From contig JAUYMU010000079.1 of assembly GCA_030698405.1 (NCBI GenBank), positions 1 through 64,000 of the forward strand: DNA of 64,000 nt, given 5' to 3'. This stretch comes from Bacteroidota bacterium (lineage in GTDB: Bacteria > Bacteroidota > Bacteroidia > Bacteroidales > Prolixibacteraceae). The position numbers were made by a program, and so were the translations under genes. Shown piece after piece: positions 14,902 through 36,300 of the stretch; positions within the stretch are counted from its first letter, which is position 1, and each line of letters starts with the position of its first letter. The notes under the pieces are model-generated. The model saw only the letters and a list, made by a program, of their open reading frames with translations, made no database searches and was not told the DNA's origin.

Positions 14902-16395
14902 TTATCCGGTCATTCTTACATGTAAGGATTGTAGCCCCAACCGGGCGAACCATTGCAAATTCATCGCTTCGCCTACTGCTTTCTTTTGGGACATATTCCA
15001 CCAGCCGCCGGAATACATCACAACGTTCCAGCTTGTGTTTATAGGAATGTCGAAACTGCGCAGAAACTTGAAAATGGTATGTTTTCTCCCGCATTGTTTC
15101 AGACGGTAGCATCTGAGCTTGCGCCTGAGCCAACCATCGAGTTCCCTGAACGTACTAAGCCAACTGTTTGCCAAATGAAAATAATTTGTCCAACCCATTA
15201 TTACCGCATTTAATTCTTTAACGATTTGTGCCAAAGTAACGCCTCTACTCCTGATTGTAAGCTCTTTGATCTTATCATTGAGCCGTACAATGGATTTGTC
15301 AGCTACTCGTATCTTCCCTTCCGGCATGACTGTATAGCCCAAAAACTTGACCTCTGAACAGTGCCTTACACCACTTTTGGCGCGGTTCACTTTCAGTTTC
15401 AATTTCTTTTCTATAAAGTCGGTCAGCGATGCCAGTACTCGCTCCCCTGCTTTCTTGCTTCTGACGAAAATATTACAGTCGTCGGCATATCGGCAGAAGT
15501 GCAATCCCCTTTTTTCCAGCTCTCTATCCAGTTCGTCAAGTACGATGTTGGATAACAGTGGAGATAGTGGGCTACCCTGTGGCGTTCCTGCTGTGCGTTG
15601 TTCGATTAATCCATCGGTCATCATGCCTGTTTTCAAGTAAGCATTGATTAAACGGAGTAACCTTTTGTCACCGATCCCTTTGCTTAGCCGTTGCATTAAC
15701 CGATCGTGGTTGATTTTATCGAAGAACTTTTCTAAATCAATATCCACTACCCATTCCCTGCCTTCGGCTATGTAAGCTGATGCTTGCAGGATCGCCTGAC
15801 CTGCGTTTCGTCCGGGACGGAATCCGTAACTGTGATCGCTAAAGTACGGTTCGTAATAGCGGTTCAACTCCTGATGGATCGCTTGTTGTATCAACCGGTC
15901 TTTTACCGTGGGGATGCCTAACATCCTTGTCCCTCCGGTTTGCTTGGGAATCTCTACCTTTCGAACTGCACTTACTTGATATTGTTCTTGCAATATGGAT
16001 TCTTGCAGTTCTTTAATGTGTCCTCCCAGCCATTGACGCAACTCTTCGATTTCCATCCCGTCAACTCCGCTACTCCCATCGTTGGATTTTACTTGTCGGT
16101 ACGCTTTGTCTAGGTTCCCATAATCTACAATCCTCTCTAAGATGTGTTCGGTTAAAGTCCGCTGTTGGTTCAATCGCGAGGACAATTCAGCTCCTGTTTC
16201 GGTGGCGTCGCTGGTTCCGCCAGCTTCGCCATCGGCAGGTTCGCCCTTTCGTGTAAACAATTTCAGTTGTTCACAGGACACCTTTTTCTGTTGCTCTTTG
16301 TCTTTACGCATATTTGCCGCGTCTTTAATTGTTAATAAATTCAGGCCTTCGGTATTTGGTGAGACCTCCAACTCTCTATGTTGGCTCGTACCCAT
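14902..16395 (-). CDS. ltrA: Group II intron reverse transcriptase/maturase
   Basis: Multifunctional intron-encoded protein: reverse transcriptase plus maturase that folds and mobilises the host intron. The 497 residues contain RT blocks in order (VDGMEIEELRQWL, QTGGTRMLGIPTVKDRLIQQ, SYGFRPGRNAGQAI, WVVDIDLEKFFDKINHDRL, GTPQGSPLSPLLSNI), the active site FCRYADDCNIF, and the thumb/GIIM maturase domain (RVADKSIVRLNDKIKELT, MGWTNYFHLANSW). No C-terminal HNH endonuclease is visible, so spread would use single-stranded targets or retrohoming without second-strand cleavage. The first ~75 residues are polar and poorly conserved, including an SDATETGAELSS stretch. The frame looks intact, so the element may be active. 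Confidence 0.95.
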   Translation of the reverse strand: MGTSQHRELEVSPNTEGLNLLTIKDAANMRKDKEQQKKVSCEQLKLFTRKGEPADGEAGGTSDATETGAELSSRLNQQRTLTEHILERIVDYGNLDKAYRQVKSNDGSSGVDGMEIEELRQWLGGHIKELQESILQEQYQVSAVRKVEIPKQTGGTRMLGIPTVKDRLIQQAIHQELNRYYEPYFSDHSYGFRPGRNAGQAILQASAYIAEGREWVVDIDLEKFFDKINHDRLMQRLSKGIGDKRLLRLINAYLKTGMMTDGLIEQRTAGTPQGSPLSPLLSNIVLDELDRELEKRGLHFCRYADDCNIFVRSKKAGERVLASLTDFIEKKLKLKVNRAKSGVRHCSEVKFLGYTVMPEGKIRVADKSIVRLNDKIKELTIRSRGVTLAQIVKELNAVIMGWTNYFHLANSWLSTFRELDGWLRRKLRCYRLKQCGRKHTIFKFLRSFDIPINTSWNVVMYSGGWWNMSQKKAVGEAMNLQWFARLGLQSLHVRMTG

Positions 16396-16785
16396 ACCTA
16401 CTACGCCCTCTGCTGACTTCTTTACGCTTTCTTCTCACGGTTGCCCGTTCGTTTATCCCTTCGCAGGGAACCCGTAAAGATCTCCCGGGGTAAGCTGTTT
16501 CTCTTTCAGTTTGACCAGCCGGATTTACTCCCCTTCCTTCTGCATGACTATTGGGCTTCTTGATTCATGGCTCAATTACCCAGGAAGGCAAGCCTTATAT
16601 CCGGTTTCTGTTCGTCTTGTCAAACTTTTGCCTACGGCTGCCTTCAGATTCCCAGTCACCCGGGACACCCTTGCTTTCGGCTATAAGATTCCGGTCATTC
16701 GGCTCCTTCGGGACTTGCACCCTTTAGATTAACAGCATGCCCGGCACACCAAATATGCAGCTCCGCTGGAGCTAAAACCCACTGC

Positions 16786-31764: not shown

Positions 31765-32970
31765 ATGGAATCTATTCGCGAAATATATAAAATTGGTCAC
31801 GGGCCATCGAGCAGTCATACAATGGGACCGGCCAAAGCAGCCAAAATATTTTTGGATAAGCATCCGGATGTTGAATCTTTCCGGGTTTATCTCTACGGAA
31901 GTCTGGCTGCAACCGGAAAAGGGCACTTAACTGATGTGGCTATTCTGGAAGTTTTCAGCGGAAAAACAATCGAGATTGTTTGGGAACCCGAAACGTTCTT
32001 GCCCAAGCATCCGAATGCACTGAAATTTGAAGCGTTCGACGGTCAGCAGCAAATCATTGAAGCATGGACGGTTTACAGCATTGGAGGCGGAGCTATTATT
32101 GACGACCGTTCCGAACTGGAAACCAAAAATATGTATCCGATCAGCAAACTGGACGATATTTTAAACTGGTGTCACGAAAATGGCAAACAATTCTGGGAAT
32201 TTGTTGAAGATCACGAAGGTCCTGAAATCTGGGATTATCTGGCCGAAGTCTGGAAAGTGATGGACGCTGCCATTGCCCGCGGACTGAAAAAAGAAGGCAC
32301 TCTGCCCGGCGGATTGATGCTTCCGCGAAAATCGAGTTCGTTTAACCTGAAAGCACAGAATTTCAGCGGACCATTCAAAAAGCGCTCGAAGCTGTTTGCC
32401 TATGCCTTGGCAGTTTCCGAAGAAAATGCTTCAGGAGGACTGATGGTTACCGCGCCAACTTGTGGCGCCTGTGGCGTGCTTCCGGCTGTGCTGAAACACT
32501 ACCAGAAAGTATATGATGCAGATTTACAGCAGATATACAAGGCGCTTGCAACGGCGGGATTAATTGGTTCACTCGTCAAACACAACGCATCCATTTCAGG
32601 AGCAGAGGTGGGTTGCCAGGGAGAAATTGGAACTGCCTGTGCGATGGCTTCGGGGGCTGCCAATCAGTTAATGGGCGGTACAATTAATCAAATTGAATAC
32701 GCGGCAGAAATGGGCATCGAACATCATCTTGGATTGACCTGCGATCCGGTGGCCGGACTGGTTCAAATTCCGTGCATCGAACGAAATGCCTTTGCAGCCG
32801 AACGTGCGCTTGCTCACAACACGTATGCCCTGATGTCGGATGGCCGCCACCGAATTAGTTTCGACGAGGTGGTTGAAACCATGTACAAAACCGGAAAAAA
32901 TCTTTCGAACGATTACAAGGAAACCAGCAAAGCAGGATTGGCGTTGTTTACCGCTTTGCCGAAATGCTAG
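31765..32970 (+). CDS. sdaA: L-serine ammonia-lyase (iron-sulfur serine dehydratase)
   Basis: Converts L-serine to pyruvate and ammonia. Single-chain form of 401 residues, with the beta domain first (KIGHGPSSSHTMGPAKAAKI) and the alpha domain after about residue 165. The [4Fe-4S] ligands are visible: TAPTCGACGVLPAVL and, later, TCDPVAGLVQIPC with IERNAFA. Its last 23 bp overlap the 3' end of a convergent lipoprotein gene, which would let the two transcripts anneal. Cytoplasmic; no cofactor PLP motif, which separates it from threonine-type dehydratases. Confidence 0.95.
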   Translation: MESIREIYKIGHGPSSSHTMGPAKAAKIFLDKHPDVESFRVYLYGSLAATGKGHLTDVAILEVFSGKTIEIVWEPETFLPKHPNALKFEAFDGQQQIIEAWTVYSIGGGAIIDDRSELETKNMYPISKLDDILNWCHENGKQFWEFVEDHEGPEIWDYLAEVWKVMDAAIARGLKKEGTLPGGLMLPRKSSSFNLKAQNFSGPFKKRSKLFAYALAVSEENASGGLMVTAPTCGACGVLPAVLKHYQKVYDADLQQIYKALATAGLIGSLVKHNASISGAEVGCQGEIGTACAMASGAANQLMGGTINQIEYAAEMGIEHHLGLTCDPVAGLVQIPCIERNAFAAERALAHNTYALMSDGRHRISFDEVVETMYKTGKNLSNDYKETSKAGLALFTALPKC

Positions 32971-34076
32971 CGAAGTAAAAATCCAATTCTTCAGCAACCT
33001 TTTCAAAATTGTTCAGGAATAACTGATCAAAGAAATTTTGGATATCCGGATCGCGGTTTGATCTGTTTAAGCTATTTACTTTTAGTCTAAAATTAGCATC
33101 TTTATGATATTCGCAGGAAATACCACGCTTAAAAACGATCCTATTATCTGCAACAGATATTATTTTGAGGAATAAGTTTCCGGATGCAATCAGTTCATGT
33201 GAAACGAAACTATTTTCTGTAAGTTGCGATGAATGAGTCCCCTCAATCGGAATCCAGGTATATTTACCGTCAATTAGAACCAATTGTTTGGTCGGTTTTG
33301 GCATCTGAACGTTCCGATATCTGATCGTAGGTCTTTCGTTAATCCTGAAATTCTGAACGATAAGCTTAATGATTAAATCGGGACTGGCATTCTGAGTCGT
33401 CAACTCTTCCCGGGAATAAAAGTGTACAAAATTCCGTTTCGAGACATTTTGTTGAGTCCAATAAAAAAGCTCTTTGTCCAGCTTTTCAGTAACTACATCC
33501 ACCGTCTTAAAGTCCAACTCCAGGGGTTCAATCAGCACCTTTAACATGCCATAACTTAGTGCTTCTTTTATTTTATCTGCAACATCTTTGTATTCCGGAT
33601 TTAATTGCGCTGCCTTTTTAAAATAGGAGTATGCTTCTTTTGCTTTCTCTTTAGAATGCTGCTGCAGGCAATCTTCCCCCGCCTGATAAAGTTCGGCCAC
33701 TGACTTCGATTTTGCATGATCAATCTCAGAAGTATATATTTTTGGGTTCACAAATCAGTTGCGAAGCAACAGAATTAAACCTGATTTCATCTCCCAGTCC
33801 ATTTACGGTTTCAAGAATATCCAGTGTTTTAGTCCATTTTAACGGTTCATTGTCCATTAAAATCCGGTCAATTTCCTGCTGATAAAATTTAATGGCCTGA
33901 TAATAAGTTTCGGTAACCTTTCTTTTCGCTTTTTGGCTTTTCGGATGGCTGTTCAGCCGGTAAATAGACTGGTTCAAAACCCTGGCATAATCAGTTTTTT
34001 TCGTAGAACCGATTCCGTTGGAGTAGCTCACGAAAACTATTGAAATACAAATGGTAAGAAAGTAGAATTTACGCAT
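32948..34076 (-). pseudogene. Frameshifted lipoprotein paralogue of the gene at 35149-36300
   Basis: Two minus-strand frames together match the intact gene at 35149-36300. The first (34076-33726) starts MRKFYFLTICISIVFVS and contains FYQQEIDRILMDNEPLKWTK and ETVNGLGDEIRF, parallel to FYQEEIDQILTGNDQFRWKR and QTVNRMSDEIRR of the paralogue. The second (from about 33750 down to 32948) resumes with PKIYTSEI, parallel to IKTYTSEM, and continues to RNFVHFYSREEL (paralogue NDFVHFYSPEEA). A one-base gain in the short C3-A5 run near 33737-33745 explains the shift. It may be a pseudogene, a slippage site or a sequence error. The ancestral N-terminal Cys of a lipobox is also absent here. Confidence 0.75.
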
Positions 34077-34109
34077 TGGATTTTGCCTGAAATGAAATTT
34101 TATTAAACG

Positions 34110-34268
34110 TAAAGACGCGATTTATCGCGTCTCTGTCGCGTCTTTATCGCGTCTAAACAGTTTGTAATATTCTTTAAATCGTGATTCTGAATTTGTTTCT
34201 TCGATGCGATAAATCGCGTTTTAAAAATTTTCAATTTGTCTTTCAGACGCGATAAATCGCGTCTCTAC
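34110..34268. repeat. REP palindromes (AGACGCGAT-TT-ATCGCGTCT type) downstream of RAYT
   Basis: Palindrome copies at 34112-34131 (perfect 9-bp arms, two-base centre) and 34245-34268, with degenerate half copies around 34134-34155 and 34204-34219. They lie in the gap between the RAYT gene and the frameshifted lipoprotein gene. The copy at 34245-34268 contains the RAYT stop codon. Palindromes of this size beside a RAYT gene are its expected substrates. Confidence 0.8.
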
Positions 34269-35137
34269 GGGGTTTCTGGTTGATTGTATTTATCCTCATC
34301 CCAACGTTTAGGATTATTCAGGATATATTCCCTGATTTTCCAATATTCGTTTTCATCACGGATAATATGATCGTGAAAACGCGTTTGCCATGTAAAATCG
34401 GCATGGACTGAATGACATTGAAACGTCGTTTTTCCTTTGTACCATCGAATGGCACGCGATAAATTATCGGATAACATCGGATTATTTTCTCCGGTAATTC
34501 CACCAATGCGATTCTCCGTAGAGACGCGATTCATCGCGTCTGATTGATTCACATCATCTATCTGATTCACATCATCTGATTGTTTTATCACGTTTATCTG
34601 ATTCAAATCATCTGAATGTTTTATCACATCTGATTGATTCACATCATCTATCTGATTCCCATCATCTAAATGTTTTATCATATTTATCTGATTTAAATCA
34701 TCTGATTGTTTTATCACGTCTGATTGATTTGATTGATCTATCGTCTCAGTTTGAACTGTTTCACAATTGGGATTTGGATCAGAGACGCGATTTATCGCAG
34801 AGACGCGATTTATCGTAGAGACGCGATTTATCGTAGAGACGCGATAAATCGCGTCTCTACCGGGTTTATCAATCACCAAAATTCCATGCACATGGTTCGG
34901 CATTGCTACAAAAACATCCAATTTTACAAATGAAAATTGGTCGGGAATTTCCAACCAATTTTGATGGGCAATTTTGCCCATTTCCGATAAATAAATGATT
35001 CCATCCCGAATTTCGCCAAAATAATGTTCGCGACCACCGGTGCAAATGGTAACAAAATAGGCTGCATTATTTCCGTAATCCCACCATTCAGCACGTGCTG
35101 AAGGAATGCGGTAAATATCCTGAAATTTGTCGGACAT
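34265..35137 (-). CDS. REP-associated tyrosine transposase (RAYT) with repeat-expanded insert
   Basis: Single-strand HUH/Y1 transposase domestic to many bacteria, which recognises REP palindromes. N-terminal part: EWWDYGNNAAYFVTICTGGR, then KLDVFVAMPNHVHGILVID with the HUH motif. C-terminal part: SRAIRWYKGKTTFQC, FTWQTRFHDHIIRD and ENEYWKIREYILNNP with the catalytic Tyr. Between them (about residues 93-220) a normally short linker is swollen by in-frame DNA repeats: four INRVS-type hexapeptides encoded by 18-bp REP half-units, then two 30-residue units starting NQSDVIK, then another REP. All insertions keep the frame. The stop TAG is itself part of a REP copy. Usual length is about 180-220 residues; this one has 290. 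Confidence 0.88.
   Translation of the reverse strand: MSDKFQDIYRIPSARAEWWDYGNNAAYFVTICTGGREHYFGEIRDGIIYLSEMGKIAHQNWLEIPDQFSFVKLDVFVAMPNHVHGILVIDKPGRDAIYRVSTINRVSTINRVSAINRVSDPNPNCETVQTETIDQSNQSDVIKQSDDLNQINMIKHLDDGNQIDDVNQSDVIKHSDDLNQINVIKQSDDVNQIDDVNQSDAMNRVSTENRIGGITGENNPMLSDNLSRAIRWYKGKTTFQCHSVHADFTWQTRFHDHIIRDENEYWKIREYILNNPKRWDEDKYNQPETP
34519..34542. repeat. REP palindrome inside the RAYT coding sequence
   Basis: GTAGAGACGCGATTCATCGC followed by GTCT, a one-mismatch copy of the REP, is translated on the minus strand as part of SDAMNRVSTENR. The orientation and phase keep the reading frame open. Confidence 0.85.
34550..34729 (-). repeat. Two tandem 90-bp units inside RAYT
   Basis: Two consecutive 30-codon units both begin NQSDVIK and end NQIDDV, with a third partial start (NQSDA) before the REP at 34519-34542. 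Within each unit the pattern QSDD/HLDD-x-NQI repeats, so the 90-bp unit itself grew from a shorter repeat. Substitutions are mostly single-base and never break the frame. Confidence 0.85.
34781..34860. repeat. Four tandem REP half-units inside RAYT
   Basis: AGAGACGCGATTTATCG[C/T] occurs at 34781, 34799 and 34817 in an 18-bp period, followed by a full palindrome at 34835-34860. Eighteen bases equal six codons, so each copy adds one x-I-N-R-V-S hexapeptide to the transposase. Confidence 0.9.
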
Positions 35138-35148
35138 GGGTTTTTCTG

Positions 35149-36300
35149 TTAATTGTACTGTTTAAAATAATTGGTCAGTTTTTCTGCCATTTGATTGAAA
35201 ATGGGTTTGGTAAACAGCACAAACATATCCTGCGAGGCGGGTGGCATGACCATTTTGTTGTTCAAAATGGCAATTTGTTCTTTATCGAGCACCTCATTAT
35301 CGCCAACAAAAATTCCGTATCTGTTCTGCCAGGTAAATTGTCCGGGAATTTTATCGGTGAAAAGTATTTTTCGGGATTGATATTCAACCGCTTTCAATTC
35401 CAATAATCCGCCCGAGGCAACCTGATCAGTCAGTATTTTAATTTTTCCCTTTTTGGTTACTGTTCTGGTTCGGGTAGCTGTTGAATCTTTCGAAATTTTA
35501 ACCTGGTATTTTTCTTCCACCTGACGCGAAAGTTCTTTCTCTTCCTCATGATGTTGTGGTCGGTCGATAAAAAAATCGTAGAAACCCATTTGTAAAACCA
35601 TGTCCGGATATTTCAGCCTTGCCTTGTCAGCCTCTTCAGGAGAATAGAAGTGAACAAAATCATTTTCCTGAAACCGTTGGTTAAGCATCTGGAAAACATT
35701 GTCGTAAAAAAACTGGGCTGAATATTCGTATTTGCCATTTACCGGAATTTGTTCGACCACTACCTTCAGTGTGGCCAAATCCTTTGCCTGAGATATTTTT
35801 TGCTTGGTATCCTTGAAACCGCGAACCAGTCCATCGGCATCCAGAAAATGATAATAGGCCTGCTTTGCGGCTTCGCGTGTTTGTCGGCTGAGAGCGTCCA
35901 TTCCGGCATCATAAAATTCCTGAGCAGCACGATTTTGCACATCAGCCATTTCCGAAGTATATGTTTTAATGGAAGTAACAAGACTTCGGGCTGCCGGAAT
36001 CCGCCTGATTTCATCTGACATACGATTGACAGTCTGCATTATTTCAAGGGTTCGTTTCCACCTGAATTGATCGTTTCCCGTCAAAATCTGGTCGATTTCT
36101 TCCTGATAAAAAGCCACTGCCATCGGGTAGCCTTCACGGACTACCTGCATGGCTTTTCGGTTATCCGGGTCGCTGCTTAAACGGTTGGCTGCTTTCATTA
36201 CCGCATCGTAATAGTCTCCGCGCTGTAATGACTTTTTTCCTGTTGAACAAGCATTCAGGAGTATAACAGCAGTTAAAATGAAAAGAAAATATTTTCGCAT
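35149..36300 (-). CDS. Predicted lipoprotein with tetratricopeptide-like N-terminal half
   Basis: A 383-residue exported protein; signal with lipobox at FILTAVILLNACSTGKKS (Cys 18). Residues ~20-180 are helical with TPR-like spacing (GDYYDAVMKAANRLSSDPDN, AAQEFYDAGMDALSRQTREA). The second half has mixed strands with FVHFYSPEEADKARLKYPDM and KKGKIKILTDQVASGGLLEL. I recognise no named domain. A broken paralogue lies downstream on the other side of the RAYT gene, which suggests that a tandem duplication was split by, or gave a landing site for, the transposase. Likely periplasm-facing and membrane-anchored. Confidence 0.7.
   Translation of the reverse strand: MRKYFLFILTAVILLNACSTGKKSLQRGDYYDAVMKAANRLSSDPDNRKAMQVVREGYPMAVAFYQEEIDQILTGNDQFRWKRTLEIMQTVNRMSDEIRRIPAARSLVTSIKTYTSEMADVQNRAAQEFYDAGMDALSRQTREAAKQAYYHFLDADGLVRGFKDTKQKISQAKDLATLKVVVEQIPVNGKYEYSAQFFYDNVFQMLNQRFQENDFVHFYSPEEADKARLKYPDMVLQMGFYDFFIDRPQHHEEEKELSRQVEEKYQVKISKDSTATRTRTVTKKGKIKILTDQVASGGLLELKAVEYQSRKILFTDKIPGQFTWQNRYGIFVGDNEVLDKEQIAILNNKMVMPPASQDMFVLFTKPIFNQMAEKLTNYFKQYN

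Follow-up and report, generated by a model that had tools for sequence, protein, structure and literature searches.

In-frame REP palindromes in the linker of a subclass-2.4-type RAYT gene from a Bacteroidota bacterium: a candidate cognate site in cis

Introduction

RAYT proteins (TnpA_REP) act on single-stranded DNA. In the sections that deal with RAYT subclass 2.4, Quentin et al. (2018; PMC6006769) described in-frame REPs inside the RAYT genes themselves, which predominate in this subclass and are generally located between HuH and Y. The insert was judged there to be peripheral and possibly of little impact. According to the same sections, the subclass, whose hosts include Bacteroidetes, is characterized by a variable insert between β3 (HUH) and αC, by double-foot REPs, and by the motifs NH[IFV]H, WQ, and YIxNNP. 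All these traits are shared by the gene described here, although it encodes a protein of 290 aa, versus a published median of 194 aa.

More distant likenesses are found in other systems. Di Nocera et al. (2013; PMC3733652), in the part of their work on intragenic repeats, reported many genes with REPs inside them, and stop codons provided by REP termini; palindromes that lie in or end an ORF, in frame, with a TAG stop taken from the REP terminus, are also found at our locus. Their GTAG REPs occurred in many kinds of genes, whereas those studied here recur at one place of the cognate transposase gene. The Rickettsia palindromic elements cited in the same paper are also short palindromes lying in frame within coding sequence, but the passages concerned describe no tie between them and a cognate enzyme gene. 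Finally, the classical REPtron, represented by E. coli TnpA_REP (4ER8, "RAYT bound to a REP hairpin"), has the same RAYT fold as our protein; however, its REPs are located beside the gene, and the stretch from HUH to the tyrosine in 4ER8 lacks a long insert.

In our literature search, we found no further paper dealing with REPs inside RAYT genes. In-frame REPs inside RAYT genes are already published for subclass 2.4, and the present gene is a further case; what is new here is controlled evidence on their prevalence, on their conservation at the DNA level, and on genomes in which the embedded copy is the sole one.

Results

The RAYT gene

The window, that is, the whole stretch of DNA analysed, comprises 64,000 nucleotides of a Prolixibacteraceae contig (JAUYMU010000079.1). 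The features of the locus are the following.

34265-35137, minus strand: RAYT/TnpA_REP gene of subclass-2.4 type, 290 aa (ORF, profile and structure matches)
34886-34894, minus strand: HUH motif H82-V83-H84; H82 and H84 invariant across 55 aligned sequences
34463-34867, minus strand: linker, residues 91-225, from the HUH strand to the next helix, largely made of REP-derived repeats, low pLDDT
34833-34860, no strand: full embedded double-foot REP, GTAGAGAC...GTCTCTAC, 28 bp (sequence, palindrome search)
34781-34845, minus strand: tandem array of half-REP units (VSTINR) with an 18-bp period; 97% match, 3.6 copies
34528-34729, minus strand: second, older and degenerate array of 18-bp units, with a 90-bp higher-order period at 34533-34729 (tandem-repeat search)
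34518-34542, no strand: other embedded REP, towards the distal end of the linker (DAMNRVST; sequence, palindrome search)
34325-34327, minus strand: presumed catalytic tyrosine Y271 (EYILNNP), invariant across 55 aligned sequences and aligned with the tyrosine of DYIYINP in 4ER8
34244-34268, no strand: 3' flanking REP, whose GTAG foot provides the TAG stop codon of the gene (34265-34267; sequence, palindrome search)
34109-34134, no strand: further downstream flanking REP (palindrome at 34112)

The ORF at 34265-35137 on the minus strand contained MPNHVHG (HUH) and no internal stop. The NCBIfam profile NF047646 (REP_Tyr_transpos) matched the protein in two stretches, one on each side of the insert, with a score of 53.7 bits that was below the cut-off of 80. 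The only solved structure matched by sequence with E < 0.9 was 4ER8 (E = 5e-6), which was also the top fold match of the AlphaFold model; both sequence and model were in agreement with the HUH and single-tyrosine fold of RAYTs. Residues W94, Q95, H101, and R104 of 4ER8, in the region whose GTAG contacts are discussed in the relevant part of PMC6006769, correspond by alignment to W250, Q251, H257, and R260 of our protein; E100 is replaced by D256. The subclass motifs were present as NHVH, WQ, and YILNNP, the insert between the HUH strand and αC covered residues 91-225 and included in-frame REPs, and GTAG-foot REPs were found both flanking the gene and dispersed in the genome. Judged from its motifs, insert, and in-frame REPs, the gene is of the subclass-2.4 RAYT type. 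A match to Pfam LED_rpt (21.1 bits, for a cut-off of 59) was considered to be a repeat artefact.

The gene was flanked by two paralogous genes, one at 35149-36300 and one at 33726-34076 plus 32948-33751, all on the minus strand. The latter, downstream neighbour was split into two overlapping frames, which matched successive parts of the intact 383-aa paralogue with 38% and 32% identity. An Rfam search over the window yielded two matches, none of them at the RAYT locus; both were group II intron domains at 16344-16665 on the minus strand (RF02001, 138.9 bits; RF01998, 50.5 bits).

A linker built from REPs

The insert consisted of 135 residues between the HUH strand (residues 82-89) and the helix at 226-241, and its embedded-repeat peptide read RDAIYRVSTINRVSTINRVSAINRVS. 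It contained a full REP with three half-units of 18 bp, another array of 18-bp units, and a further REP; the array at 34781-34845 continued into the full 28-bp REP ending at 34860. Palindromes within the ORF lay at 34836 (no mismatch) and at 34521-34542 (one mismatch). The linker of the window gene is therefore long and built from the double-foot REP of its genome, as whole palindromes and in-frame duplications of an 18-bp half-unit, whereas subclass 2.4, as presented in the relevant sections of PMC6006769, is not described as having linkers made up mostly of two such arrays. In the AlphaFold model, pLDDT was mostly above 90 in the core and mostly 40-60 in the linker, which is probably disordered. 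As single-stranded DNA, the array folded 6.5 sd under shuffles.

A search of the 5.49-Mb genome for the REP 22-mer, with two free bases and at most one mismatch, gave 22 places (0 for the reversed control), of which four lie in the window; the arm pattern GTAGAGAC-N12-GTCTCTAC was found at 20. Among 20 further REP places in this genome, 14 were outside any mechanically called ORF of at least 100 codons and six were within such putative ORFs.

The only close orthologue found (L010; 81% identical, from another species of the genus) carried a single REP at the first site, where the window gene has a REP plus three half-units. In its counterpart of the second array, AGACGCGATAAATC was still readable as a half-REP. 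These two observations suggest that halves of the REP were the material from which the linker grew, by frame-keeping steps of 18 bp.

These results bear out most of what the first-pass annotation had read from the window alone: a RAYT gene with its own REP palindromes, all in frame; three half-units plus a full REP at 34781-34860; stepwise, frame-keeping addition of 18-bp units, in agreement with the array period; repeats that correspond to the REP of the same genome; and a flexible linker after the HUH strand, found here as a low-confidence segment running from strand 82-89 to helix 226-241. Its expectation that repeat number varies was borne out in L010. It had overlooked the second, older array, the two flanking REPs with the stop codon that one of them provides, and the frequency of this architecture in the clade. 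The annotation had named, as evidence against it, an insert common to all orthologues, of fixed length and without REP similarity; our data differ from this.

Palindromes in the linkers of related RAYTs

Among 393 genomes searched, all of them drafts, 184 matched a profile (A1) that contains some linker columns. The set retained had 81 genes: the window gene and, for each of 80 genomes of the order, a single open RAYT, taken as the first full or near-full open-frame place among the matches listed; five listed genomes with an eligible place were left out (G039, G053, G058, G194, and G393). A strong palindrome (score ≥ 9) was present in 75 of the 81 linkers, the remaining six scoring below 9, versus 2, 1, and 2 of 81 for the core segments N, M, and C, respectively. 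Dinucleotide shuffles gave strong palindromes in 0-3.5% of cases depending on the segment (1.2% for the linker). Chance palindromes were ruled out by these shuffles and by the core-segment controls. The 11-bp arms paired perfectly in 55 of 81 linkers and at 10 or more positions in 72, compared with 0 of 243 core segments. With a linker palindrome this widespread, in an architecture already published for subclass 2.4, the embedded REPs of the window gene are not supported as a singular event.

A second set of relatives gave a similar picture: 61 of the 71 parsed genes had a palindrome in the linker (cores: 0, 0, and 2), whose length ranged from 18 to 209 residues. Eighty genes had been fetched for this set, by a ranking that favours linker similarity, and nine were dropped because they were cut or out of frame. 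In contrast, RAYTs without a long insert (NF047646 matches with a HUH-Tyr distance of 60-86; 40 of the listed genomes fetched, 10 unparsed by the pattern) had a palindrome between HUH and the tyrosine in only 1 of 30 parsed genes; their N-terminal part had one in 5 of 30.

A second, rarer site was loop 1, between FGEI and LSEIG, where five of the 81 RAYTs had palindromes (L121, L128, L135, L167, and L171). A third tolerated REP site is suggested by L179, which has the peptide VETHSLAS in the loop that precedes the conserved WQ. Tandem arrays (score ≥ 40) were detected in 51 of the 81 linkers and, in each of these, the period of the best array was divisible by three; the linker loops thus behave like coding minisatellites.

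Conservation of the DNA rather than the peptide

The left GTAG foot, used as the sole criterion, selected 58 of the 81 linkers (the other 23 had no foot of the form sought); 39 of these 58 showed 14/14 pairing, and 15 core types occurred. The inner 6 bp paired at 5.55 positions with their own right arm, compared with 1.99 with the arms of other types.

An identical 22-nt palindrome was shared by 62 gene pairs, selected for this identity, which would be unexpected at saturation. The median identity at 4-fold third positions was 0.36 in these pairs and 0.31 in 600 random pairs. Two pairs were close relatives (L156/L164 and L140/L147), but over the full set of 62 recent horizontal transfer was rejected as the cause of the identity, given host genes close to synonymous saturation. 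In 20 of the 62 pairs, the palindrome was read in different frames, which places the constraint on the DNA of the palindrome and not on its peptide. Such changes of frame among relatives imply turnover by re-insertion or relocation, which could be obtained from insertion bias alone. A bias of insertion towards the RAYT's own gene, together with a tolerant protein, may also account for the embedded hairpins. Over the 75 palindromes, 45 and 17 lay in the two open frames, none in the frame with a TAG stop, and 13 were unassigned, a distribution expected of any open gene.

Match between the hairpin and its RAYT

Linker DNA matched the flank of its own locus (score ≥ 24) in 27 of 81 cases, versus 2.3% for the flanks of other loci; the corresponding controls gave 1 (N), 2 (M), 3 (C), and 4 (loop 1) of 81. 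Median palindrome identity rose with RAYT core identity, from 0.50 at 40-50% to 0.87 at 70-80%, and both the GTAG feet and the core types followed RAYT lineages. A RAYT paralogue in the window's own genome had another type of palindrome. Off-type palindromes also occurred: the GCAAAATTTTGC type was present in 4 of 27 non-matching genomes (at most six copies), GCAATGCATTGC in 4 of 28, and AACGCATGCGTT in 1 of 32, and at least two off-type copies were inside other RAYT genes (G075 contig C191 and G218 contig C5). Two adjacent RAYT paralogues were observed on G000 contig C1 (25189-25938 and 24023-24274, L213), one with a perfect GTAGAGACGCCCAATTTGGGCGTCTCTAC and the other, truncated, with one pair broken.

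Genomes with a sole copy

In 13 of 18 type-matched genomes, the 22-nt palindrome (≤ 1 mismatch) was present as a single copy, which lay within the RAYT gene. The remaining five had it both in the RAYT gene and beside it, with one to four extra copies in three of them. When GAGACGC arms with any 8-base core were considered, the RAYT gene was the single place in 5 of 15 genomes. For GTAGAGAC-N12-GTCTCTAC with any core, the RAYT linker was the lone match in 6 of 29 matching genomes (41 searched), the rest having 2-66 places; the reversed control gave one place in G000, and REPs with different arms are invisible to this search. "Sole copy" is valid only for the pattern named: G375, for example, had one copy with its own core but six places when the arm pattern was allowed any core. 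An outside copy was present within 1 kb of the RAYT gene in 26 of 75 cases, some flanks being shortened by contig ends, versus 4.1% in the flanks of other loci.

Broken RAYT genes

Twenty broken loci were fetched and four excluded (L268, L274, and L276, without a stop; L275, across two genes). Among the 16 retained, in two of which (L266 and L270) the linker is possibly not included, the hairpin was perfect in nine and paired at 10/11 or better in 10, versus 55 and 72 of the 81 intact genes, respectively. Hairpins did not clearly decay in broken genes, and this comparison lends no support to selection through gene function or to a role in cis.

Discussion

The first-pass annotation had proposed self-targeting, or targeting in cis, by the embedded REPs. 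Such a role is made more likely by conservation at the DNA level and by the sole-copy genomes. We favour the reading, with a probability of roughly 0.57, that the embedded hairpin is the cognate recognition site of the enzyme, kept in cis, rather than the result of accidental absorption. The RAYT-REP pair would keep, and after loss regain, a linked cognate hairpin in a tolerant part of the gene. The gene would then travel with its own substrate, and might be bound by its own product, which would perhaps restrain it or make copies from it; the linker peptide is probably passive.

The strongest alternative, close to the view put forward in the relevant sections of PMC6006769, is neutral absorption: REPs would land widely and survive only in the permissive RAYT linker, in frame by survivorship and without function. 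Several observations are as expected from it, namely the low pLDDT of the linker, the restriction of assigned palindromes to the two open frames, the array periods divisible by three, the occasional palindromes of loop 1, the existence of REP-rich genomes (up to 66 places), and the persistence of hairpins in broken genes. For the window gene taken by itself, absorption suffices, since its own genome is REP-rich (22 and 20 places). It accounts less well for a linker palindrome in 75 of 81 relatives when an outside copy lies within 1 kb in only 26 of 75, for the genomes in which the RAYT gene has the sole copy, and for palindrome identity despite saturated synonymous divergence. We therefore regard neutral absorption as a serious but less probable explanation.

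The hairpin could also work in the mRNA, by slowing translation or by making the RAYT message more or less stable, whether or not the RAYT binds to it. A strong stem is retained in most genes, and the linker RNA of the window folded 6.4 sd better than shuffles. However, a stem in RNA would by itself need no tracking of RAYT lineages by GTAG feet and core types, and the REP bound in 4ER8 is DNA, the kind of substrate on which RAYTs act; this explanation seems improbable. Selection on the linker peptide, with the palindrome as a by-product, is the least credible explanation and was rejected, as VETQNFASL and RDAMHCVST do recur in several genes but the linker is of low confidence in the model, and varies from 18 to 209 residues, and, in 20 of 62 pairs, the same DNA palindrome is translated in two unrelated frames.

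The reading of the hairpin as a cognate site held in cis can be extended to the whole subclass, although more tentatively, at somewhat less than even odds. The cognate hairpin would then be a standing part of subclass-2.4 RAYT genes, its DNA conserved through changes of frame, even where the genome has no other copy, and would serve as a cis site that guides the enzyme to its own gene, either for autoregulation or as a master copy that seeds REP families after transfer. An embedded hairpin so common and so unusually well preserved hints at something useful rather than accidental. The view of little impact, expressed in the sections of PMC6006769 on the insert, differs in this respect from the constraint suggested by DNA conservation and sole copies, and the published reading of a tolerated insertion may be too weak. 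The linker lends itself to a clean test, as its hairpin can be altered without its peptide and vice versa.

These findings bear on the way in which REP families arise, keep their match to a single RAYT, and last over time. If the cognate hairpin resides in the transposase gene, the enzyme and its substrate are physically linked, and such a linkage would explain both the tracking of specificity and the seeding of REP families after transfer.
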